Assembly: GCA_022575985.1 (NCBI GenBank)
Contig: JAKSXM010000014.1
Span: forward strand, 15,128,001-15,192,000
From: Anagrus nilaparvatae
Lineage: Eukaryota > Arthropoda > Insecta > Hymenoptera > Mymaridae
Reading direction: 5' to 3'
DNA length: 64,000 bases
Part shown: positions 2,011 to 62,795 of the stretch, one piece after another
How positions within the stretch are numbered: position 1 is the stretch's first letter
Layout: each line of letters opens with the position of its first letter
Notes under the pieces: model-generated
What the model was told of the DNA's origin: nothing
What the model saw: the letters and a program-made list of their open reading frames with translations, nothing else
Databases searched by the model: none
Translations under genes and position numbers: made by a program

Positions 2011-4874
2011 GTGCCAGCTAGTTGGCAGGGTATTTTTTTTATAATGACACCAAGGGGCATTCTAAAAGCCTTGTAAGAGGAATCTGTAATAGAGCAGTAT
2101 GCAGAGCAGCCAACTTTATTTTAAGGTTTTAAAAAGATCTGGTAAACCCTTGGGCATCATCAACCAATAATTAAGATTTATTATTCATTAATATGTCTAT
2201 AATACAGGAAAACTGTATAAATTCTACACTAAGAACAGACCAGAAGCAAGTATTCCAGTTTTTTAACACTATCATTATACAAGAATTGAATTGGTTGATT
2301 CTTTGCTCAAAAATATCGGCATCTGCATTTCGTATGCAGATAAGCATTGCTTTCTAGTGCAACTTTGGGTACTTGTGTATACGGAAACACGAAAGAAACT
2401 GCTCATAAAGAAATTCAGAAATTGAAATGATTAATTAGATGGGCAGTTTTGATATCTTTTAGTTTTTTATAAAAAAATGATAATAATTTTAAAAAATGAG
2501 TAACATTGAATTTGAAATTGTTTTGAAAATGATGAAATCTAGGTTGCCAAGAAAATAAAGAATGGACCAGGTAGTAAGCTCCGAACGGCTACTATTTTTT
2601 AAAGCCATGATTCGTCTATTATTTTTAATCATTTTTAGGAAACGTCTATAATCCACAGATATTTAAACTTTGTAAACGTAACTTGGATCAGGTCATATAT
2701 GTTATTATTAAAAATATAATAAAATAAGTTAAAAGAAAATTCGTGTAGAAAATAAAATAGCTTTAAATTTCTTTTATTCATAAAGCGGACCTTATTCTTT
2801 CGAAAGCTGACAATCGGTATTTTAAATCCATATATATTGCTGCTACTTTTTTTTATTTAAGATATACAAATATATCTCTTATATTATTTTACACAGGACG
2901 TCTAAATACGATAACAAAAAAAAAAAGAAAAAGAATAAAATGAAAAGCATCGAACATATAAAAAAAAAAGTACTCAAGTTTTATTATGCCTGATATACCT
3001 TGGAAAATTTTATAGTATTCCAGAAAATAGAAGATAGTGAGAGTGCAGTTTACCATATATATAAAAAAAAGCTTGCCGACATAAATACAAATCTTTTATT
3101 TTTTTTTGTTTCTAAAAAATAGAAGAATAATGAAAAGCTTCTGTGGATGTTCGCGAGAAAAAAACCTCTGTCAACTATAAATATGCAAAAAAAGCAGAAA
3201 ATATGAAAAAGACGATCTTACGTGCAGTCCCTTAAGAGCAAAAAGCACATTACACCATAAATTTGTATACATAAGTATATATAAATTTTTATGCATGCAT
3301 GAAAAAAGAACCCTAAACTTCTATTTACATTTATACAAGAGCAAGCTATAAATGTCCCGTGCGAATCTATATTTATTATATATGCGTTAGCATAAAGCAG
3401 TAACTTTCTCTCGTTATTTCGTTATTTTTTCATGGTGCAACTGCATTTATACATGATAGATGCCATTGGTCGAGTATATTTATATTCCTGTGTCAAGTGA
3501 CAAATATATGTCTTTCTCCCTTTTTCTATCAGCATCGTACACAACTGATAAAGAGATATCAAAACGCTTCTCTATTTATACCTGTAAATGCAAATTTTGC
3601 GAGATTCTGTGATATCGTCACATATATATGCTTTTAAAAGATAAATAATTTTTCTTTTTTTTCCATACCACACGTGGCAACTTGTCATTACGGTATGTAA
3701 ATATCAATTTAATATTCTCTACTAAAATTTTATACAATATTTTGATTTATTTATTAATTAATGTTTTTTATGTAGGATACATGTATATGAGGCACAAATT
3801 CAGATGACTTCACTAAGTTTCAGAAATTAATGAGAGTGGAATTGATTGGCACAAATGATCGGGAAAAAGTTTTATTCTTTATCAAACAACTGAGACTTAT
3901 TTTTTGAAATTTTATTTCTTGATATCAATGATACATTCATTATTTTTTAGTTCTTTTTGGGACGTAAAACTGATAAAAGTTCAAAGAACTGTAAGTCTCA
4001 AAAAACGAATTTATAAATTACAAATAAAAAACAATATATATTTTAAATAGAAAAATTGCGATTTTTAAAAATTTTATTTTAATAAAACAAAGTGTTCTGT
4101 ACTTATTTAATTTTGGGGATCAATATTTGTATGTCTAAACATCATTTCTATCTATTAGCTAGTGTTTAAAAAAATTTTGAAGCTCGTTAAAAAATTAGAA
4201 AGCTGAAAAGTCAAAATTCCCATGTTATTTAAATAGGAAACTTCAAAAGCTCAATGGCAAGGATTTTTAAAATCGAAAACCAAAACCCTTGGAGCTGGGG
4301 GGTTTTTATGACCAAAATATCCGAAGAAAATAGGGAGAGCAAAAAAATCTCGAAAACGAAAAAATAAGACACACTCTAATGTATATTATACAGAGAAGAA
4401 TTACTTATAAAGATGAATAAAAGCTTTTTAAATTTATATGGTACTTAAAAAGTAAAAAGGAAAAAAAGATAGAAAGTAAAATACTTATTAAATTTGATTT
4501 ATTTGTTACATATTTTTATACGACAAATATTATTCTTTTTTGTAATAAAAAAGATTAAAGGCAGTATGCGTGAAATTTTGAAGTACAGAAATTTTTATAT
4601 CCGTTGAAAAATGTTCAATTTTACTTTTTTTCCTAAACTGCTTATTTTAATAAATTTTATTTTGCTACAAATTTTAAATTTTTTAACTTTTAAAATTTTA
4701 AACTTTTTTTTGATTAATTGATTGATTGAAAATTTTTATTTTTACATAATTGGACAAAATGGTTGAATTACAAAAAGTGGTAATTTTTTAATTGTTCCAA
4801 CACGTACAGGTTGTTTAACAATTCTTATGTGAAAAATTAAAATTATAGAATTTAAATTTAAAAGCTAATATATA
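2011..4874. other. AT-rich sequence, no gene seen
   Basis: No exon or transposon end was recognised. Near 4711-4735 a GATTAATTGATTGATTGA run followed by T-rich sequence resembles the reverse strand of a LINE 3' tail, similar to 21299-21320, but nothing coding flanks it. Confidence 0.45.
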
Positions 4875-5125
4875 CACTGTAAAAAGTAACTTCCTTTTAT
4901 GAACAAAAAAATTAGAAAATTTTCGAAAAAATTTGTAAAATTCGAAAAAAATCGTAAATATTCGAGAATTCTCTTGTGCATTTACGAAAAAAGTTGCAAA
5001 TTCACAATTATTTTTCGTAAATTTACGATTTTTTTCAAATATTTACAAATTTTTTTGAAAATTTACTTATTTTTCGAAAATTTTTTAATTTTTTTGTTAA
5101 TATAAGGAAGTTACTTTTTACAGTG
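4875..5125. mobile_element. Mariner-type MITE, copy 1 (251 bp)
   Basis: Inverted ends CACTGTAAAAAGTAACTTCC and its complement (ending CTTTTTACAGTG at 5125) are flanked by TA on both sides (4873-4874 and 5126-5127), the target duplication of Tc1/mariner elements. The body is AT-rich, largely self-complementary and rich in TTTTTCG/CGAAAAA, with no transposase. A second copy lies at 37641-37992. Confidence 0.85.
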
Positions 5126-5457
5126 TAGAAAATAAAAATATAAAAGTTTAATTTATAAGTTTTAATTTATATGTCTTTTGAAAATTAATAATTTTTATTA
5201 CTCGTTTGTAATTCTTAATCAATAATATTTATAATCGACCTTTTTACGAGTATCCGCATATAAAAAGCGTGGGCGATGAATTTGTAAATTCATTTAATAC
5301 CATGTACTCGTAAAAAGGTCGATTATAAATATTATTGATTAAGAATTACAAACGAGTAATAAAAATTATTAATTTTCATATATAGAGCTTGGACCTAATA
5401 ACGCTCTGAGTTATAACATTCAACTCGCATTTTAATAAATATATATATATAACATCA

Positions 5458-5542
5458 TTTCTTATATACAGAACAGATGGCTAAAGCAATGTGAGTCGTC
5501 CTCACAAGTGCTAAAATCGCCATTTGTTAACTATATAAGAAA
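5458..5542. repeat. Imperfect hairpin upstream of the hammerhead
   Basis: TTTCTTATATACAGAACAG (from 5458) is an imperfect inverted repeat of the stretch ending ACTATATAAGAAA at 5542, with outer stems of about 24 nt. A small internal hairpin, GTGAG (5491-5495) with CTCAC (5501-5505), sits in the loop. It lies directly 5' of the ribozyme inside the same unit and may be part of the same structured transcript. Confidence 0.5.
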
Positions 5543-5562
5543 AATAAGGACGTGTTTACATC

Positions 5563-5636
5563 AGCGTCTGTAGCACATACACTAACACACACAGCTACAC
5601 TGATGAGATCTATGTGTTAGTGTTGATCGAAACGCT
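5563..5636 (+). ncRNA. hammerhead ribozyme, type III topology
   Basis: A complete self-cleaving hammerhead fold can be drawn. Helix III is AGCGT (5563-5567) paired with ACGCT (5632-5636), 5 bp. The cleavage-site base C17 is 5568, giving a GUC triplet with scission predicted between 5568 and 5569. Helix I is TGTAGC (5569-5574) with GCTACA (5594-5599), 6 bp. The core CTGATGA is 5600-5606. Helix II is GATC (5607-5610) with GATC (5625-5628), including the preferred G10.1-C11.1 pair. GAA is 5629-5631, followed by A15.1 (5632) opposite U16.1 (5567). Every conserved core position is present. Loop 1 (5575-5593) and loop 2 (5611-5624) hold CACTAACAC (5580-5588) and GTGTTAGTG (5614-5622), exact reverse complements that could form a kissing interaction. 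The molecule opens at helix III. Activity is inferred, not shown. Confidence 0.88.
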
Positions 5637-6240
5637 AGGTACCTTCTGTACCGACATTTAAAAACCGCGTAAATTCAAATTTTTAAATAAGTTTAAAAAT
5701 TCATCTAATGTCGCCGCTTTGTATGCCTTAATAAAAAAAGAGATGACGATAAGCATCCGCATATAAAAAGCGTGGGCGATGAATTTGTAAATTCATTTAA
5801 TACCATGTACTCGTAAAAAGGTCGATTATAAATATTATTGATTATATGTCTTTTTTTCATAAGATAATCATATGCATAGATCAATGCACTGCATATTTTG
5901 CAGCTGATCTACCCCAACTGATGAGTTACAAATGTGCTTAAATAATATATTTTAGCAAATACTAAAAGTCTTAAACAACTTTTTTTTTAATTAAATATAT
6001 ATTCAAAACCAAAAAATTTGGACTATTAGGTTTCCTGTTATATAAACAACGAAATAACTACGTTTTTGACATATAAAATTATAGATTATAATATAAGATC
6101 TTATAGTAGAAGGATCGATAAGAGGTAGTTTGAGTTATCAAACATAAAGAAAAATGGACATATATATCTTATCTAATCACTTAATAAATTTAATAATTTA
6201 AAAATGCTTAATACGTCAATAATTAAGAGCAGTAATATAA

Positions 6241-10847: not shown

Positions 10848-13224
10848 TAGTCAGTCGAAAGAACAATTATGTAAAAAAAAAGGACATTTCTTGTCCATTC
10901 TGTCAAGAGTGAAATGAAAAAAAATTGGCAAATTTCTTGATTAAAACTGATATTTTTTATTATATATTTTTAATTTTCTTTATATTGACCTATCCTGGGT
11001 ATAGGACTGTTTAAATAATTAACTCTTGTTAATCAAGTCATACGTTTCGCCTGAAAATTTAGCGGCATAGTTTACAAAATATTTGCAATCTTATAAAATT
11101 TATACTTGAACTCCCTCAAGATATACTGGGAAAAAGAAGTTTGTGCTAATAAAAATTTATTTATAATTTATGGTAGAAGAAAATTCACCATATAAATAAA
11201 CATTTTCGAAATTGCTGAATACAATTATGAAGTCAATTTTTTACTTTGACACTTTGACACTTATCAGCTATCAACTTTAAAAACTAGGATATAAAAAAGT
11301 ATAAATAAATTAAGATTTTTGAAATTGATATATTTAGATTTGAAGACGATTGCAGGATTTGTTTATTTGACATTAGTCAACTGGACGTCATGTTTACAGC
11401 TGTCAAGAGATAAAATTAAAAAACTGACCTTTTATATGTTTGAATTTAGTGAACTCAGGAACATAAAATAATATAGTTTTGTTTTAAATTTCCTGATTTT
11501 CAAAAGTAAGTTGACGGCTTGTTTCTGAAAGCTGTCGGAATAAAAAAACTTACTTCATAATTGTATTCAGTGAGCTTAAAAACATAAGTAATACCTATGC
11601 TTTATTTTTAATTTTCTAGTTTTCAAAAGTAACTTGACAGCTAGATAAAATTTGTTAAGAATGAAATTTTCAAATGTGGTATAAAAATTGAATTTAGTAG
11701 TAATCGGGTAAATAAAAAATTATGAGTTTCATTATTTTTCGTCGGAATGGGCAAGAAAGTGTCCTTTTTTATGTCCTTCCATGGGGTTTTGTTTTTATTT
11801 TAATTTATAAAGTTTACTAATTAGTTAAAAATAATAGTTTAAAAAGAAACGGTTACAAAATCGTGTGCAGAATCAAAAATTTAGCAACCTGAATAAAGAA
11901 AGACTTTGGTAAACGTTATAGCTTCAAGACCACATTATGTGGTTCAAATACTTACATCTTCAACTAGTTTTAAAGTTTCTTGGCGATTGGAATAAATTCC
12001 ATTTACCACTTCTGATCCTAATTGCGGTAGGAGTTAATAACAGACTGGCCTCCGTGTTGACACTGTACTCTAGAGCATCATCAATTTTCATAGTAAACTT
12101 AAGCTCTTTGTGCAATAAATCTTTGATAAGTCTTTATAAAAGCTTGAATAAGAAATTTAGCAATGTGGCCCACAACATATCTTCTACATGCATTAAATTA
12201 TATGATAAAACTTTTTTAACTTTTTATAAAAAAAAGAAGTTAGAATTTTTTAATTGAAGATGCAATTAAAAGCAGGAAAAATAAAATAAAATAATTATTA
12301 TTCGGATAAACATAGACGCGATAGGTAAAAATGTCAAACGTTTTAAGCAAGAAAATAATTTACTTAGAATTAAAATGAAAGTATGTATGGTAGTATAACT
12401 TTTGTAATATTAATAATGCAAGAGCGTATAATAAAAACATAAAAATGTAATATACTTTGATAATAGTTTATACTGTCATTCAACTCTCGTCTTTAGAAAG
12501 CCCAAGTTTTATACAGATTTTTCATTTCCATCCGTATAATTCAAGTTGTTTTAATATCTTGTATAGAAGAATAAAAGTAGAGTAGTCGTTTATCTCTCGG
12601 CCATTATATAGAGTAACGCTTGCATCAAGTGCAGACTTATAAATATTATGCGCTAGTAGCTTTCGGTTTACTTTCCATTTAAAAACATTCGTGTTGGTGC
12701 ACTGTGTCCTATACAGCTATACTACAATATTTTTTACCATATGAATTTTCTCGAGAGTATTTTATCTTCAGAGGGATGGTCCTTTCTATAATCTCCTGAC
12801 GGACATTATCGAGAAGGCTTAGAGCAATAGAGACTTGTTAATTAACTCGTGTTTTAGAGTGGTTTAAATGACGGAGAAAATACCTTTGAATTAAACATTA
12901 TGTAAAACGCTATTAAAATTAATCGTTTGAGGGAATTACATTTTTTTTACTTTGCTCTTTTAGGATTTAATTTAATTCTATAGGGTTATAAAATTACTAC
13001 TTTTCTTTGCATTACAACAAATTTTATTATTCATATTATTTTTTCATTGCATGACATCAAGTAGTTAGGAGAATAATTACTTTCGAAATAATGGTTTGTT
13101 TAAAACAAAAAAAAATTCAGAGAATATAGTACTCAAACTAATAAATAAACTAATAAGACTTTGATTTATTATATGAATTTCAAATAAACGAATTGAATTA
13201 CATGTTAAAATTCTTCTTGTTTAG
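10848..13224. other. AT-rich sequence before the sidestep-like exon, no gene seen
   Basis: This should be the intron preceding the 13225 exon, or contain an unrecognised upstream exon. I searched by eye for the first half of an Ig V-type domain (strand-B Cys, core Trp) and did not find it. A 106-residue frame at 11937-12257 has no family features. The acceptor tract is at 13207-13224. Confidence 0.45.
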
Positions 13225-13430
13225 TTATGATGCTCGGGATATTCACTACCGAAGGACGAAAATTTGGAGTCCGGAAAACTTTTGGGGAAATAGAGCGACA
13301 TTTCGAGCTACTTCTCCAGCTCATCTAGTAATCACAAATGTTCAAGAAAGAGACGGTGGCGAATACAGATGTAGAGTTGATTTTCGCAATTCGCCAACTA
13401 AAAATCTTAAAGTCAACTTTACCATAATAG
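13225..13430 (+). CDS. sidestep-like gene, exon encoding second half of Ig domain 1
   Basis: Internal exon of a sidestep-family cell-surface immunoglobulin protein. In Drosophila, Sidestep is a membrane attractant recognised by Beaten path receptors on motor axons. The acceptor is a T-rich tract ending TTGTTTAG at 13224 and the donor is GTAAGA at 13431. The exon supplies the last base of a split codon, 68 full codons and one base of the next, so it ends in phase 1. The product contains SPENFWGNRATFRA, LVITNVQERDGGEYRCRVDF and NSPTKNLKVNFTII. DGGEYRC is the Ig strand-F D-x-G-x-Y-x-C motif with the second disulfide cysteine, and CRVDFRNSPT is very characteristic of Sidestep paralogs. The strand-B cysteine and core tryptophan must lie in an earlier exon, which I did not find in 1-13224. 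The reading frame also opens upstream into intron, which is not coding. Which Sidestep paralog this is cannot be decided. Confidence 0.86.
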
Positions 13431-13703
13431 GTAAGAACAGCTAATATATTTCTATTTCTAATATTAGTTTATCATTTTGGGAAACTGAGTCAACAATAAT
13501 AAACTCTCTTTTAAGGGTTATAATCTTAAATAATTGAATTACCTTTATTTACAAGAAACTTCGTATCTGGCCTAACACGAAATATCTTTTGTTTTTAATT
13601 TTCTTGAATTTGGCTAATTTTTTGTCAACTCGGCTATCCAGTATACTCTATAAAAATACAGTTTTTAAGATAAATAACGATTTTTTTTTGGTAACTGTCT
13701 ACA

Positions 13704-22896: not shown

Positions 22897-24670
22897 TTTT
22901 TTTTTTTTTTTTTTATTTTTTTATTTATTGTATAAATATTATACAAAGAATTGAGATTAAATATGATTTAACTTAATTACATTGCACATGAAATAAAAAG
23001 ATAAAAAATTTTTAATGAAAAACATAAATATATAAAAAGTAAGAATAAAAATAACTGAAAAATATTATATAAATTCAAAATAAAAAAATATAATAAGTAT
23101 TCAATCTGTAGTGTTGGTAAGTGTAAGGATGAGTAAAAGGAGGAAACAGTTTATAAATAATTGCTTAAAAAATTATGAAGGAAGTTAGAGATGGGGGGAC
23201 AACGAAGGAATACCCGATTCTCGTGAATCAATTTCTAGTAAGAATTTGTTTAAATTTGCTAAGGAGCTAATTGAGGACGAGAATCTAATATTTTCGAGAA
23301 TTGAATTCCAAAAGGATATCATATAAACGAGGGAAGAATTACTGAAAAAAGGATTTTTTGTGAGATCAACTTTTAGATGGGGCCTGTTTTTTGGACGCAG
23401 CTCTCGGGCTGGCGTATATATATTGATTTTGGATTTTAAATAAGTAGGTTTACCAAAATGAAGTATGTTGTAAATATATGAAGCACAAAGATATTTAGCC
23501 CTTAATTTAACTTTTAGCCAACCTAGACTTATCCTAGCAGGAGAGGTCCTAAGAGGATATTTAATATCACAGACATATCGAACTGCCGCGTTTTGTAATT
23601 TTTGTAACCTCACATATTGATGTTCAGGAAGATTACCTATAGGAAACATACAATAGTCTAATAAGGGAAAGATAAGAGCAGAAACTAACTGCTTGCGAAG
23701 GTTTTTTGTAATTAAATTTTTAAAATACCTTAATTTATAAAGGGAATAATTTACTGTTTTGACAACATGATTAATGTGAGTACTCCATTTCATGTCTGAA
23801 TCGAAGAATATGCCAAGATTGTTAACTACTTTAGAGAGTTTTATATTTACACCACCAAAATAAAATGAATTATCAGCGTTATAAAAATCATTTACATTTC
23901 TCCCAAAAAGAATTATTTTAGTTTTATCTTTGTTTATAACAAAATTGTTTAAAGAGGACCAGGCTTCTATTTCCTTAATATCATTTTGTAGTAGAGAAAT
24001 ACCTAGATCAAAATCCTTATAGGAAGTTTGAATATAAATTTGAAGATTTTCAGCATAAAGAAGCCTTTTAGAATACACAATTTTAGTACCTAAGTCATTT
24101 AAATATATAAGGAAAAGAAGTGGGCCCAACACCGAACCCTGTGGAACTCCACTTATAATTTTTTTTATGGAGGAGGCCTTATCATCATAAATCACTGATT
24201 AAGTTCTATCAGAGAGATACTCAGAGAACCAGCCTATAGCACTATCAGAGAAGACAAAAACTGAATGCTTCTTTAAGAGGATTTCATGAGAGACCCTATC
24301 AAAAGCTTTTGACAAGTCAATCATGACTAAAATGGTTATTAGATACAAATGATGGCCACGACAAATATCATCAGTAAGGTTGGTCAAAGTGGTCTGAGTA
24401 CTGTGAAATTTCTGAAATCCTGATTGAAAACTATCTAACAGATTTAGTTGGTTTATGCTTATCCAGAATTTTTTCAAAAATTTTAGATATTATAAAAAGC
24501 AATGATACAGGTCTATAATCACCAAGAGAACTAGGATTTGGAACTTTAGCTGTGGGAAGAATATTACCATGTTTCCAGGCTTTGGGAAACTTGTTCAATA
24601 TGATTGATTTATTGAAAAGGGCTAAGAAAACCCTTGAAAGAGCAGGAAGACAAAGTTTCAGTTTTAGGTG
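22897..24670 (-). pseudogene. LINE copy A, reverse transcriptase, inactive
   Basis: Minus-strand non-LTR reverse transcriptase of the Jockey/CR1/L2-like assemblage. From the N-terminal side: FPKAWKHGNILPTAKVPNP and DYRPVSLLFIISKIFEKIL (fingers; about 24600-24465), a frameshift near 24455, FQSGFQKFHSTQTTL and VMIDLSKAFDRVSHE (24477-24202), an in-frame TAA at 24199-24201, then SGVPQGSVLGPLLFLIYLND (the conserved G-x-PQGS-x-x-GP motif) and a 336-residue frame to 23185. The catalytic Y-x-D-D box reads YAEN (24046-24057), so both aspartates are changed. The 3' UTR ends in AATAAA and a poly(A) tail (T run from 22897 on the + strand). It is not functional: mutated catalytic site, stop and frameshift. 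The 5' boundary, about 24670 or slightly beyond, is uncertain. Confidence 0.88.
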
Positions 24671-30540: not shown

Positions 30541-30854
30541 ATAGTAGTTTTAACAAACATGGAATTATCCTAAATCTGTAGTTGCATATTATGTTTGGTA
30601 ATTCGTTTTGATGTAGTATTAACATAAAAAAAATAAGCAATTTTTTTTTTAAACACACAGTACTCTTAATTTTGATCATTTTATATTTTTTTAATTTAAT
30701 AAACAATTAAAATTTTTAATAATATCATTTGAGTTTATAAAAGTATACAAAGAATTACTGTGCCTACACTCATACTATTACATTTTTTTTTTCAATGTGG
30801 AATTTTCCGGAAGAAAATTTTAATGAAAATTAGAAAAATATAAGTTAATACACT

Positions 30855-31671
30855 ACTGCTGCAATTTGATTTCAGTAAGGCATTAGACTCCATTGCACCA
30901 TCGAAGCTTATAGTCAAATTAAAGTCCATGGGCTTCTCAAAAAATGCCTTGCTGTGGATCAAATCCTACCTCCAAGACAGAAAATTACAAGTCTCCTCAA
31001 AAACTTCTTCCTCTGACTCACTTGGAGTTAACCTGGGTGTTCCACAAGGGTCTGCGTTGAGTCCCCTCCTGTTTTGACTTTACGTAAATGACGTCAAACT
31101 ACACCTTGACGAGGACATCTTTCATCTTTTATACGCAGATGACTTACAGATATACGTGCAAACACCACCTAAGAATGTAAATGAGGCAATTGATAAGCAA
31201 TCATTAGCGGCTCATAACATCAATATCTGGGCCAAAAGTGTATCCTTGAGACTGAACCCAGACAAAACTAAAGCTATACACTTTGGCACTAGCCATTTTG
31301 TAGAACAATTGGAAAGACTTATCCTACCTGGTGTGACTGTGAGTGAAGGTGTTACGGTACCCTTTGTTAAAGAGGTCAAGAGTCTAGGTGTAATCCTGGA
31401 CAATAAGTTATCTTGGGAGCCGCATATTACATCAATTGGTAAAAAAGTGAATAGGGTCCTCTATACGCTCAGGTTTATCAGGCAATGCACCACGGAGGCT
31501 CTTCGCATTAAGCTTGTACAAGCACTAGTTGTCCCTCACTTGGATTATTGCTCTGTCGTATATCTTGATTGTTCAACAAATTTAAGGGATAGAATACAAA
31601 GTTAAGCAATACATGCCTAAGGTATATCTTTGGAGTTCGTAGGGACACACACATTTCTCCTTATCGAGAAA
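30855..31671 (+). pseudogene. LINE copy C1, reverse transcriptase, first part
   Basis: 5'-truncated non-LTR reverse transcriptase. In order: FDFSKALDSIAPSKLIVKL, LLWIKSYLQDRKLQV, NLGVPQGSALSPLLF, an in-frame TGA (31075-31077), LYVNDV, the intact catalytic box LLYADDLQIYVQT (YADD at 31132-31143), LRLNPDKTKAIHFGTS, VKSLGVILDNKLSWEPHI, and LVVPHLDYCSVVYLD, ending RDRIQ. A frameshift near 31600 leads to NTCLRYIFGVRRDTHISPYR in another frame, up to 31671. The same element resumes at 32408. One stop and one frameshift make it a pseudogene, but it is better preserved than copy A and belongs to a different family of the same broad assemblage. Confidence 0.88.
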
Positions 31672-50674: not shown

Positions 50675-52087
50675 CTCATTAACGCCGGAGCGGAGAGTTT
50701 TGGAAATGAGCAAAAATAAGTATATTCCTTTATAGATAAGTGGCTAAAAAGTTCATCCTTGTAGTAAAATTTCATGTTCTTTCAGAATATGATATTAGTT
50801 TTTACCTACAACCAATAAAAATACCCTAAAAACGGGAGTAAAAGGGGTAGGTCAGGCATTATTAGGAAATGTTTGGAAAAAGCAATGAAAAAAGTATCCA
50901 ATTTTATTAAAAATGTTTGAAAACAATATTTTTTATTTAAATTTAAGTAAACTTTATATATATTGAGGTCTCATACATTTTGGCCCTATTTACAACCCTT
51001 AAAAGGTGGATAAGGGTGGTACTCCAGTCAAAATACGGGTTTGGTTGTATTATCATTGGCGAAAACCAGATTTGCTCTACTATATGTTTTTTGGGTCACT
51101 AAACACTCCAATATGGGTATATCCTGGACGCTCAAAGTGCGAAAATAACAAAAATACCCCATTTAGGGGTAGTTTTAGCTGCTTTAAGGGTGAAATATTG
51201 ATTATATATGAAAAAGGAGTCTAAATTCTTGATTAGCGACCCAAAAAACCTATATGGGCATATCCTGGATGTTAAAAGTACGAAATTAGCAAAAACACCC
51301 CTTTTTGGGGGTAGTTTTAACCAATTTACGGGTAAAATTTTAATTATTTATGAAAAAGGAGTCGAAATCCTTGATTAGCGACCCAAAAAACCTATATGGG
51401 CATATACTGAATGCTAAAAGTACGAAAATAGCAAAAACACTCCCTTTTCGGGAGAAGTTTTAACCACTTTAGGGGTGAAATTTTAATTATTTATGAAAAA
51501 GAAGTCAAATTATTGATCAGTGACCCAAAAAAACAGTATGGTGCAAATCTGAGTGCTCAAAAAGCGAATATGTAAAAAAAACTCCTTTTTGGGGGTAGTT
51601 TTTGCAAATTTAAGGGTGAAGCCCCAATTTCTCTGACAAAATTACCCCGATTTTCGTGTTCAGCGACCCAATAAACATATAGTAGAGCAAATCTGGTTTT
51701 TGCCAGTGATTATACAACCAAACTCGTATTTTGACTGGAGCACTACCCTTATCCACCTTTCAAGGGTTGTAAATAGGGCCAAAATGTATGAGACCTCAAT
51801 GTATACGAAGTTTACTTAAATTTACATAAAAAATATTGTTTTCAAACATTTTTCAATAAAATTGGATACTTTTTTCATTGATTTTTCTAAACATTTCCGA
51901 ATAATGCCTGACCTACCCTTTCACCACCGTTTTTAGGGTATTTTTGAAGGTTGTAGGTAAAAACTAATAACAGATTCTGAAAGAGCATGAAATTTTATTC
52001 TAAGGATGAACTTTATAGCCATTTATCTATAAGGGAATATACTTATTTTGGCTCATTTCCAAAACTCTCCGCCCCGGCGTTAATGAG
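50675..52087. mobile_element. TTAA-flanked foldback element, copy 1 (1.4 kb)
   Basis: TTAA lies at 50671-50674 and 52088-52091. The ends CTCATTAACGCCGGAGCGG and the complement closing GGCGTTAATGAG begin ~350-bp arms with landmarks GGAAATGAGCAAAAATAAG, AAACATTT and CCTTAAAAGGTGGATAAGG. The arms lead into an inner part starting TACTCCAGTCAAAATACGG. The core (about 51090-51640) is about four ~150-bp subrepeats, each with GATTAGCGACCCAAAAAACC, ACACCCC...GGGGGTAG and AAAATTTTAATTATTTATGA. TTAA duplication suggests piggyBac-type mobilisation, but no transposase was found. Confidence 0.82.
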
Positions 52088-54168: not shown

Positions 54169-55309
54169 TCCAGTCAAAGTACCCGGGGGGGGGGGAGTTG
54201 TATTTTTACTGGCGAACATGAGATTTGCATTTAAAAATCGGGATCATTTCGTAAAAAAATGGGGGCTTCACCCCTAAATTTGCAAAAAACTACTCCAAAA
54301 TGGGGTTTTTTTTTACATAGTTGCACTTTGAGCGCTCAGATTCGCACCATACGGGTTTTTTGGGTCGCTGATCAAGAATTTCGATTTCTTTTTAATAAAT
54401 AATTAAAATTTCACCCCTAAATTGGCTAAAATTACCCCCGAAAAGGGGGTTTGCTATTTTGACACATTGAGCAACCAGGATATGTATATATAGGTTTTGT
54501 GGATCTTTAATCAAGAACTTCGACTCCTTTTTCATAAATATTCAATATTTCACCCATAAATAGTTAAAACTACTCCTAAAAGGTGTGTTTTTGCTATTTT
54601 CAAACTTTGAGCATCCCAATTATGTCTATTCAGGTTTCTGGGCCGCTGATCAATAAAAATTTATTATTTTTGTATAAAAAATTTATACTTACCTGAAAAA
54701 TAAATTATTATAGTGAAGGTAAAAATGAATATTTTTTTTTTTTTATAATGCATACTCAAGAAATATTGAATACTTATGAAAAATAAATCAAAATTCTTGA
54801 TTAGCGAAGAAAAAAACCTATCTGGACATATCCTGGATACGCAAAGTGAACAAATAGCAAAAACACCCCTATTAGGGGTAGTTTAAGCTATTTTAAGGGT
54901 GAAATATTGAATATTTATGAAAAATAAGTCGAAATTCTTGATTAGCGACCCAAAAAATCTATTTGGACATATCCTGGTTGCTCAATGTGCCCAAATAGCA
55001 AAAACACCCCATTTTCGGGGGTAATTTTAGCCAATTTAGGGGTGAAATTTTAATTATTTATGAAAAATTAATCAAAATTCTTGATCAGCGACCCAAAAAA
55101 CCCGTATGGTGCGAATCTGAGCGCTCAAAGTGCAACTATGTAAAAAACACCCCATTTTTGGATAGTTTTTTGCAAATTTAGGGGTGAAGCCCCCATTTCT
55201 TTACGAAATGACCCCGATTTTCGTGTTCAGCGACCAAAAAAACATATAGTAAAGCAAATCTCACGTTCGCCAGTAAAAATACAACCAAACCCGTATTTTG
55301 ACTGGAGCA
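54169..55309. mobile_element. Foldback element inserted in the palindrome array (1.14 kb)
   Basis: Left TCCAGTCAAAGTACCCGGGG and, complemented, the right GCTCCAGTCAAAATACGGG start inverted arms containing ATTTTTACTGGCGAAC and AAATTTGCAAAAAACTA. The target word ATATAC flanks both sides (54163-54168, 55310-55315). The core consists of the same ~150-bp subrepeats as the two TTAA-flanked elements, but the TTAA arms are absent. It is therefore the inner module moving on its own, or a related family. An 11-G run lies at 54185-54195. Confidence 0.75.
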
Positions 55310-55416
55310 ATATACGGATCACAACTTTTTTAGCCTTTAAAAAAGGGAAAATAATTTAAATTTGAATTTAAATTTTACCTATTTTCCGTCTAGCGACTTC
55401 GTTATTTGTCATTTAC

Positions 55417-55448
55417 GACATGTTTCGGAACTTATGTTCTATCATCAG
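55417..55448 (-). ncRNA. Hammerhead-like motif in the Penelope left arm (antisense)
   Basis: The inverted copy of the right-arm motif: CTGATGA at 55448-55442 on the minus strand, helix II AGAAC / GTTCC with one mismatch, GAAA at 55426-55423, then CATGTC. It lies in the terminal inverted repeat and is antisense to the element's ORF. Confidence 0.5.
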
Positions 55449-55449
55449 G

Positions 55450-56216
55450 TTTCATCATCAGCATAAACAAAAACATACAATTTACTTTAGAAATTGAAGA
55501 AAATAATTCCATAAATTTTCTAGATTTGACTTCATATAAATCAAATAATGAATTTAATTATAAAATATACAAAAAACCAACAACTACTGATACAACCATT
55601 CATGCAACATCTCATCATCCATATTCACAAAAAATGGTTGCATATAATTCATTTATACACAGATTATTAACTATTCCTCTAGAACCAGATGATTTCCAGA
55701 AAGAATTAAACATCATTAAACAAATTGCCATTGCCAATGGTTATAATAGCAATATTATAGATGAACTCATCAAAAAACAACAGTACAAGAAAAGACATCC
55801 AGATATACCAAAAAACAATGCAAAATATATATCATCTACATACGGTAATTTTACGGCACCAACTTTAACTGAAATATTTAAAAAATTAAGTATAAAAAAT
55901 TACGATCCGGACAGAAAACAAGATACAAAAAATACTGCGTCAAACAAAAAGAACTGAATTAGAGTCCAAAAGTGGAATATATAAAATTTAATGTAGTGAT
56001 TGTGATTGTGCATATATTGGACAAACAGGACACACTTTCGCCAAAAGATTTAAAGGACATATACCTGGACCAAATCAAAACGTCATCACAACAAATTATG
56101 CAAAACATCTTAATTCCACAAATCATAATGGTTTAAAATTTAATGAAAATCTAAAGGCATTGCATATATGTAAAAAAGGTAATATTATGGATACACTTGA
56201 AGAATACGATGAATAA
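55450..56216 (+). pseudogene. Penelope-like ORF: RT C-terminus plus GIY-YIG endonuclease (broken)
   Basis: The frame to 55957 contains INFLDLTSYKSNNEFNYKI, YKKPTTTDTTIHATSHHPYS, MVAYNSFIHRLLTIPL and IKQIAIANGYN, the region following the reverse-transcriptase palm in Penelope-like elements. The palm with its catalytic aspartates is missing. After a +1 frameshift (about 55935) come ELESKSGIYKI, an in-frame TAA (55989-55991), CSDCDCAYIGQTGHTFAKRF, NYAKHLNSTNHN and LHICKKGNIMDTLEEYDE, ending at 56214-56216. GIY-x10-YIG, with the CxDCxC cluster between, is the nuclease hallmark of the family. One frameshift, one stop and 5' truncation mean no functional product. The boundary of the first frame on its left lies in the terminal arm. 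Confidence 0.87.
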
Positions 56217-61105: not shown

Positions 61106-62795
61106 CTCATTAACGCCAGGGTGGAGAGTTATGGAAATGAGCAAAAATAAGTATATTCCCTTATAGATAAGTGGCTAAAAAGTTCATCCACATACTAAAA
61201 TTTCATACTCTTTCAAAATCTGTTTGAAAAAATCTCTTGAAAATACCCTAAAAACGGGGGTGAAAGGGGTAGGTCAGGCATTATTAGGAAATGTTTGGAA
61301 AAATCAATGAAGAAAGTATCCAATTTTATTGAAAAATGTTTGAAAATAATATTTTTTATGTAAATTTAAGTAAACTTCGTATACATTGAGGTCTCAGACA
61401 TTTTGGCCCTATTTACAACCCTTAAAAGGTTGATAGGGGTGGTACTCCAAACAAAATACGGGTTTGGCTGTATTATCACTGGCGAAAACCAGATTTGCTT
61501 TACTATACGTTTTGTGGGTCGCTGAACACGAAAATCGGGGTAATTTGGTAGAGAAATTGGGGCTTCACCCTTAAATTTGCAAAAACAATCAGGATATGCA
61601 CATATAGGTTTTTTGGGTCACTAATCAAGAATTTGGACTCCTTTTTTATATATATGTAATTAAAATTTCACCCTTAAAATTGCTAGAACTACCCCTAAAA
61701 GGGGTGTTTTTGCTATTTTTGCAATTTGAGCGTCCAAAGTACGTTCTTAAACTTTTTTTGGGACACTAATCAATAATTTCAACTTCTTTTTCATAAATAA
61801 TCAATATTTCACCATAGCTAAAAATACCCCTAATATGGGTATATACTGGACGCTCAAAGTCCGAAAATAACAAAAACACCCCATTTAGGGGTAGTTGTAA
61901 CTGCTTTAAGGGTTAAATTTTAATTATTTATAAAAAAAGAGTCAAAATTCTTGATTAGCGGCCCAAAAAACGTATACTAACGTACTTTGGACGCTCAAAG
62001 TGCAAAAATAGCAAAAAACCCCTTTTAGGGGTAGTTCTAGCTATTTTAATTATATATGAAAAAGGAGTCGAAATTCTTGATTAGTGACCCAAAAAACCTA
62101 TATGGGCATATACTGGATGCTAAAAGTACGAAAATAGAAAAAACACCCCCTTTTTGGGGGGGTAGTTTTAACTAATTTAGGGGTGAAATTTTAATTGTTT
62201 ATGAAAACGAAGTCGAAATTATTAATCAGCGACCCCAAAAACCCATATGTTGCAAATCTGAGTGCTCAAAATGCGAATATGTAAAAAAAACTCCGTTTTG
62301 GGGGTAGTTTTTGCAAATTTAAGAGTGAAGCCCCAATTTCTCTGCCAAATTACCCCGATTTTCGTGTTCAGCGACCCAAAAAACATATAGTAAAGCAAAT
62401 CTGGTTTTCGCCAGTGATAATACAACCAAACCCGTATTTTGTCTGGAGTACCACCCCTATCAACCTTTTAAGGGTTGTAAATAGGGCCAAAATGTATGAG
62501 ACCTCAATGTATACGAAGTTTACTTAAATTTACATAAAAAATATTATTTTCAAACATTTTTCAATAAAATTGGATACTTTCTTCATTGATTTTTCCAAAC
62601 ATTTCCTAATAATGCCTGACCTACCCCTTTCACCCCCGTTTTTAGGGTATTTTTAAGGGTTGTAAGTGAAAACTAATGTCAGATTTTGAAAGAGTATGAA
62701 ATTTTAGTATGTGGATGAACTTTTTAGCCACTTATCTATAAGGGAATATACTTATTTTTGCTCATTTCCATAACTCTCCGCCCGGCGTTAATGAG
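61106..62795. mobile_element. TTAA-flanked foldback element, copy 2 (1.7 kb)
   Basis: Second copy of the 50675-52087 family, flanked by TTAA at 61102-61105 and 62796-62799. It has the same ends (CTCATTAACGCC), the same arms (GGAAATGAGCAAAAATAAG, GGGTAGGTCAGGCATTATT) and the same inner ends (ACTCCAAACAAAATACGGG). It has more and rearranged copies of the ~150-bp core subrepeat, about 61560-62330. It is non-coding. Confidence 0.82.

Follow-up and report, generated by a model that had tools for sequence, protein, structure and literature searches.

Metazoan non-LTR retrozymes, according to the available portions of PMC7229834 and PMC7761336, are small, AT-rich, non-coding hammerhead units of about 150-450 bp which occur as dimers to multimers and show target-site duplications of more than 4 bp. 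Their hammerheads are of type I. In the same portions, Penelope was proposed as the mover of these retrozymes on the basis of co-occurrence; the words "head" and "inverted" are both absent from the main text of PMC7229834. Penelope-like elements carry a reverse transcriptase/endonuclease frame of their own. The "typical Penelope structure" set out in the accessible part of PMC3846280 consists of two direct terminal repeats (pLTRs), an adjacent inverted pLTR, an optional tail of 31 bp and a duplication of 8-10 bp, and the Penelope hammerheads described in that part and in PMC11167929 are minimal type I motifs within the pLTR. According to PMC11167929, a Penelope protein cleaves both strands and extends each of them, and internal start sites on the RNA bound a tail of 30-40 bp.

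Type III hammerheads are found in plant LTR retrozymes, which are non-autonomous retroelements with LTRs, a primer binding site, a polypurine tract and 4-bp duplications (PMC7229834 and PMC7761336, in the parts available; see also PMC4918200). Animal type III hammerheads with Watson-Crick loop-loop pairing occur in termite and dipteran genomes and in HDV-like RNA; as described in the accessible text of PMC7936874, they are pseudoknotted, their longer helix I contains an internal loop whose pairing uses a 4-nt motif (GCCR/YGGC), and those of termites are isolated motifs. Finally, pDo500 of the insect Dolichopoda, whose repeat of about 500 bp contains a 49-nt hammerhead, is an abundant satellite that makes up about 5% of one genome (PMC2837043, as far as available).

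The element described here is a hammerhead repeat in a stretch of 64 kb (the window). It resembles the metazoan retrozymes in its small, AT-rich and non-coding hammerhead unit, its multimers and its duplications of more than 4 bp, but its hammerhead is of type III and its unit is 503 bp long. It shares with Penelope-like elements (PMC11167929, and PMC3846280 in part) the inverted and direct terminal repeats, the optional tail of 30-40 bp, the short duplication, the AT-rich targets and the partial tandems; it differs from them in having no reverse transcriptase/endonuclease frame, in carrying a full type III hammerhead in the body of the unit, and in the length of its arrays, whose arms reach 14.9 units. 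Unlike plant LTR retrozymes, it has no recognisable LTRs, primer binding site or polypurine tract, and its duplications are of about 13 bp. Whereas the termite motif is isolated in the text available of PMC7936874, here an animal type III hammerhead lies inside a repeated mobile element, with a potential pairing of 11 bp between terminal loops. In searches of the open-licence PMC literature, no animal retrozyme or Penelope-type element was found described with a type III hammerhead.

The hammerhead had been recognised at 5563-5636 (+) by an earlier sequence-only reading. It can be read directly with its core intact over 74 nt: helix III (5563-5567/5632-5636, AGCGU/ACGCU, 5 bp including the U16.1-A15.1 pair), C17 (5568), helix I (5569-5574/5594-5599, UGUAGC/GCUACA, 6 bp), the CUGAUGA core strand (5600-5606), helix II (5607-5610/5625-5628, GAUC/GAUC, 4 bp) and the GAA core strand (5629-5631), all on the + strand. 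The core, the three helices and the open helix III assign it to type III. C17 is residue 5568, and cleavage is predicted 3' of 5568, as had been proposed; the lengths given then for three closed helices (5, 6 and 4 bp) are also correct, although only helices I and II are closed and helix III is open. An Rfam search, suggested as a check at the time, aligned model RF00008 with the full length of the motif when 1.2 kb was searched (33.4 bits, E 4.6e-5). This does not reach the gathering score of 48.5, and the motif was absent from the listings of two Rfam scans of the whole window.

A type III descriptor (core intact, helices I and II of at least 4 bp each, helix III of at least 5 bp) matched 5563-5636 as the only place on either strand of the window. 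In 984 first-order Markov simulations of 64 kb there was 1 match altogether, a chance expectation of about 0.001 for each 64 kb, which bears out the view that the motif is too complete for chance. The type I descriptor gave 0 matches in the window; the one motif found is of type III. A candidate second hammerhead at CTGATGAG (5918) was rejected, as no GAAA follows in the stretch examined and it lies outside the target-site duplication. The RF00008 search of the host genome gave no match and was uninformative, since 14 control genomes equally gave none; viral and bacterial collections gave 0 exact matches to three patterns.

The window copy is a single insertion with its own boundaries. The target-site duplication TTATATGTCTTTT, 13 nt in length, stands at 5167-5179 and at 5842-5854, the right copy sharing its first 3 nt with the end of the unit. 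It occurs twice in the window, and 200000 random placements gave 0 matches of 13. Between the duplications there is an inverted arm of 74 nt (5179-5252, − strand), the exact reverse complement of 5305-5378, whose outer end lies at unit position 37 (site B), and a full non-coding unit of 503 nt with 31% GC (5342-5844, +), which ends at unit position 503 (site A, 5844). A pLTR-like direct repeat is present at 5249-5341 and 5752-5844 (both +), the first copy overlapping the inverted arm by 4 nt (5249-5252); its copies are identical at 92 of 93 positions, which confirms the period of about 503 bp noted earlier. The insertion amounts to 1.18 copies of the unit (5249-5844) plus the 74-nt inverted piece. 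The duplications, the inverted arm and the loop-loop complement described below are additions to the sequence-only reading.

The stretch from site A to site B (5342-5378, +) is the equivalent of the Penelope "tail" (PMC11167929; PMC3846280 in part), and its 37 nt fit the 30-40 bp tail of PMC11167929. With inverted and direct terminal repeats, tail and short duplication, the anatomy of the insertion is the Penelope layout of the available part of PMC3846280. The interior of the element (5180-5841) contains no frame of 90 aa or more, and so no reverse transcriptase plus GIY-YIG frame of its own; no second copy of the element is present in the window. A DNA transposon or MITE was considered and rejected, as the inverted match 5216-5252/5808-5844 stops short of the left end of the insertion. 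By eye, TATAAAAA at 5259-5266 and an Inr-like TCATTT at 5290-5295 stand 33 nt apart, with a second copy at +503; the pair may be a chance occurrence in AT-rich DNA. A separate inverted repeat of 103 nt (4866-4968/5032-5134, 82% complementary) lies directly to the left of the element.

Loops 1 and 2 of the hammerhead are Watson-Crick complements over 11 nt (5579-5589 with 5613-5623, +). The chance of such a complement is 0.0011 with shuffled bases, 0.033 under an order-1 model and 21 in 60000 for window pairs of the same geometry, a level that is not negligible because both loops are CA/GU-rich. All 11 loop-loop pairs are kept in 134 of 144 copies, and covariation is absent. The hammerhead fold without the loop-loop helix is predicted at −11.3 kcal/mol, and the loop-loop duplex at −14 to −15 kcal/mol with the cost of closing the pseudoknot excluded. 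In the predicted minimum-energy fold (−19.3 kcal/mol) the same 11 bp form a nested hairpin instead; in three longer contexts the hammerhead is predicted to lie 9.4-11.7 kcal/mol above the minimum, the loop-loop helix being uncounted. Activity would plausibly depend on helix I forming before the loops pair. Folded as a circle, the 503-nt unit is more stable than its shuffles (z −3.07; 1 of 100 shuffles as low).

The element has at least 366 matches in the same genome (488.7 Mb; 614 first-look candidates, 40 scored). We analyzed 38 loci, namely the window and 37 places among the matches listed, a sample in which short and old copies are under-represented. They comprise 73 arm pieces and 159 unit lengths. 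Two opposite arms, arranged head to head, are present in 31 of the 38 loci and a single arm in 7, and the arms reach 14.9 units. In 25 of the 31 two-armed loci, one outer end lies within 11 nt of unit position 0/503 (A) and the other at unit position 30-45 (B). L045 has both outer ends at B. In five loci (L057, L060, L063, L065 and L067) one end is at B, but the opposite end coincides with neither A nor B; with these five left out, 25 unlike against 1 like pair gives p 8e-7 under independent ends (binomial test). L063 and L067 resemble one insertion present twice, and L034 and L044 are composite loci. Each of the 7 loci with a single arm has an end at A or at B.

End matches of at least 11 nt flank 19 of the 38 loci, as compared with 0 of 1500 random pairs treated alike. 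The 23 duplications of at least 8 nt, with one of the L063/L067 pair counted, are 84% AT, with modes of 13 and 12. These non-coding hammerhead units, multi-unit copies and duplications are those of a retrozyme. The cleavage junction is crossed by 58 of the 73 arms, for which a linear ribozyme-cut monomer could not be the template; for a circular RNA this is indirect evidence. Of 54 inner ends, 0 fall within 10 nt of the junction, which says little since only about 2 were expected, and the inner joints are distributed non-uniformly along the unit (KS p 0.0025, 27 loci). At L056/L068, retrozyme units adjoin a Penelope reverse transcriptase fragment at site A: in L068 (C337:6978500-6988400, reverse complement 3503-5534) the units end at A directly against the fragment, and an inverted partner of this fragment, broken off at the identical point, lies at 209-1146. 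This junction may be a nested insertion or a template switch.

To describe uniformity within arrays, unit differences were averaged over the full units of the first 21 loci. The same-arm mean difference per 503 nt is 0.26 for the long arm of L031, a locus with 15 full units, 0 for L041 and 0.77 for L033; units of opposite arms are identical in L041, L042 and L045, and a mean difference of 2.1 separates the two arms of L031. The between-locus mean is 6.9 (range 0 to 15.1). Same-arm means are 4.4-4.7 in L034 and L040, 7.3 in L039, 8.6 in L038 and 12 in L043; these values, like the difference between the arms of L031, speak against copying from a single template. It can be seen that young arrays are near-identical within themselves and that three older arrays are not; the arrays would mostly be copies of one template. 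At many loci, every unit of both arms carries the same alleles that differ from the majority. Fixed alleles listed at one locus alone include 5728A (L033), 5380G (L035), 5430A (L042), 5525C (L044) and 5572G (L031), the last of which makes a G-U pair in helix I. The remaining variants are often singletons, and blocks of intermediate multiplicity are present in L034, L036 and L038.

Taken together, we estimate at roughly 60% the probability that the element is a non-autonomous retrozyme copied by a Penelope-type enzyme around a circular RNA whose ends are joined at the hammerhead cleavage site. Repeated copies would be transcribed, we infer; the type III hammerhead, held by its loop-loop helix, would cut after 5568 to release 503-nt units, and these would close to circles. 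Other elements would supply a Penelope-type reverse transcriptase/GIY-YIG endonuclease, and this enzyme would make a staggered cut of about 12-13 bp, the size seen in the duplications, in AT-rich DNA. Both cut ends would then serve as primers for cDNA synthesis on the RNA, at two sites separated by 37 nt, where the outer ends are observed, and each cDNA would continue past the hammerhead site for up to about 15 rounds, as the observed arm lengths suggest. Joining of the two cDNAs head to head at varying points would give the inverted arrays seen, with one A and one B end; the window copy would be a short product, with an arm of 1.18 units and an arm of 74 nt.

More specifically, though at somewhat less than even odds, two reverse transcriptases, one per cut target strand, may circle one ribozyme-closed 503-nt RNA the same way round, starting at two fixed sites with 37 nt between them; the task of the hammerhead would be to make the circle. 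As the pairing of A and B ends is near-obligatory, a single Penelope complex would give each target strand its own start site. In the accessible parts of PMC7229834 the mover of retrozymes is argued from the co-occurrence of Penelope; here the insertion scars themselves indicate that both strands were primed in the Penelope manner, and the uniform multi-unit arms fit reverse transcription around an RNA circle. With the paired A/B ends, both the choice of start sites by Penelope and the need for a ribozyme become directly testable.

A different template would leave the mover unchanged. The same Penelope-mobilised element might be copied from a long multimeric RNA, transcribed from an array already in place and left uncut; the hammerhead would then be a passenger or serve another step. 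This is unlikely in our estimate, but it draws on the seven-unit array L038 (C317:1830100-1834800), in which G5629A, a change of the core residue G12, is present in 7 of the 7 units spanning the motif. A change at G12 is expected to abolish hammerhead cleavage. L038 should therefore be a multi-unit insertion with a dead ribozyme, as predicted from its sequence, and no other result speaks as strongly against a strict ribozyme requirement. Moreover, Penelope elements themselves occur as tandems, and in PMC11167929 hammerhead mutants had no effect on insertion in vitro and uncut RNA was the main substrate. Against an uncut template, RNA with intact hammerheads in as many as 14.9 successive units would need to evade cutting, and the near-identical units with alleles common to both arms would require a homogeneous source array.

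Conservation of the motif bears on a further possibility, namely that the element is mobile and its inherited hammerhead cuts poorly or no longer. The 38 loci contain 144 units spanning the motif, and the core and all 15 pairs are kept in 115 of them; whether other copies conserve core and helices was the check set by the sequence-only reading. There are 31 distinct motif sequences, the commonest of which is that of the window (88 units, 27 loci). On locus-majority alleles the whole motif is less variable than the rest of the unit (18/2812 against 187/16302, p 0.013). By part, the values are p 0.024 for the loops, p 0.14 for core plus stems and p 0.67 for the core, so that selection on the core is not shown. 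These last two values, the competing nested hairpin of the predicted fold and the finding of 0 compensatory changes among the 31 sequences would suit a poor ribozyme; the complete core and helices, the 115 intact copies and the low variation of the whole motif do not, nor does the fact that core changes outside L038 occur in single copies. We regard a failing hammerhead as improbable.

As to the enzyme, at least 150 scored Penelope reverse transcriptase matches are present in the same genome, with stop-to-stop frames reaching 826-893 aa. Relatives of the degraded Penelope copy of the window (55394-55954, +) bear PF26215, and one of them also the GIY-YIG domain PF01541. In the window copy itself, a GIY-YIG-like stretch follows in another frame, to 56210; Pfam searches with window pieces gave nothing useful. 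The insertions might instead be made by a LINE-type enzyme. Twin priming likewise yields 5' inversions, and LINE-type reverse transcriptase frames are present in the window; but the head-to-head arms and the fixed A and B ends 37 nt apart are Penelope anatomy, and the window copy has no poly-A end. The case against LINE enzymes is one of anatomy, and it makes them, in our judgement, quite improbable. An ordinary satellite growing by unequal exchange, the comparison with pDo500 made at first, would account for tandem arrays of about 503 bp and for the intermediate-multiplicity variants of L034, L036 and L038, yet it is contradicted at the loci read by their dispersal, fixed ends, head-to-head polarity and their own duplications (in the window copy and, as end matches of at least 11 nt, in 18 of the 37 other loci), and is very improbable.

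Compared with 13 Penelope loci (L069-L081, among the at least 150 matches), the 503-nt unit has a longest common stretch of 15 nt, and this lack of similarity counts against the Penelope reading for the families compared. Minimal type I hammerhead-like cores (CTGATGA, hairpin, GAAAC, GTC) were seen by eye beside the Penelope frames of L071, L073-L076 and L079-L081. The type I descriptor on the 13 loci and Rfam on seven Penelope loci listed no hammerhead, these cores included. Rfam scans of the retrozyme loci L041 and L045 listed none either. A search of 0.9 kb brings up two L041 copies with RF00008 (33.4 bits), and the Rfam negatives are thus a filter effect at least in L041. L081/L082, taken as a control for Penelope ends, sits in a palindrome that extends past the stretch examined.

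The location of the element in an insect intron, suggested from the sequence at the outset, is plausible. An exon-like frame on the same strand (13157-13441, +) encodes an immunoglobulin half-domain that matches PDB chains of Sidestep IV and VI, closest to Sidestep IV (best E 4.1e-18), and gives the strongest hint in the sequence of an arthropod host; a simple motif scan found no upstream exon of this Sidestep-like gene. Elsewhere in the window, LINE-type reverse transcriptase fragments lie at 23185-24477 (−) and 30844-31602 (+), and tandem repeats of about 126-142 bp at 51111-51620, 54349-55188 and 61917-62159 share a stretch of the GACCCAAAAAACC type.
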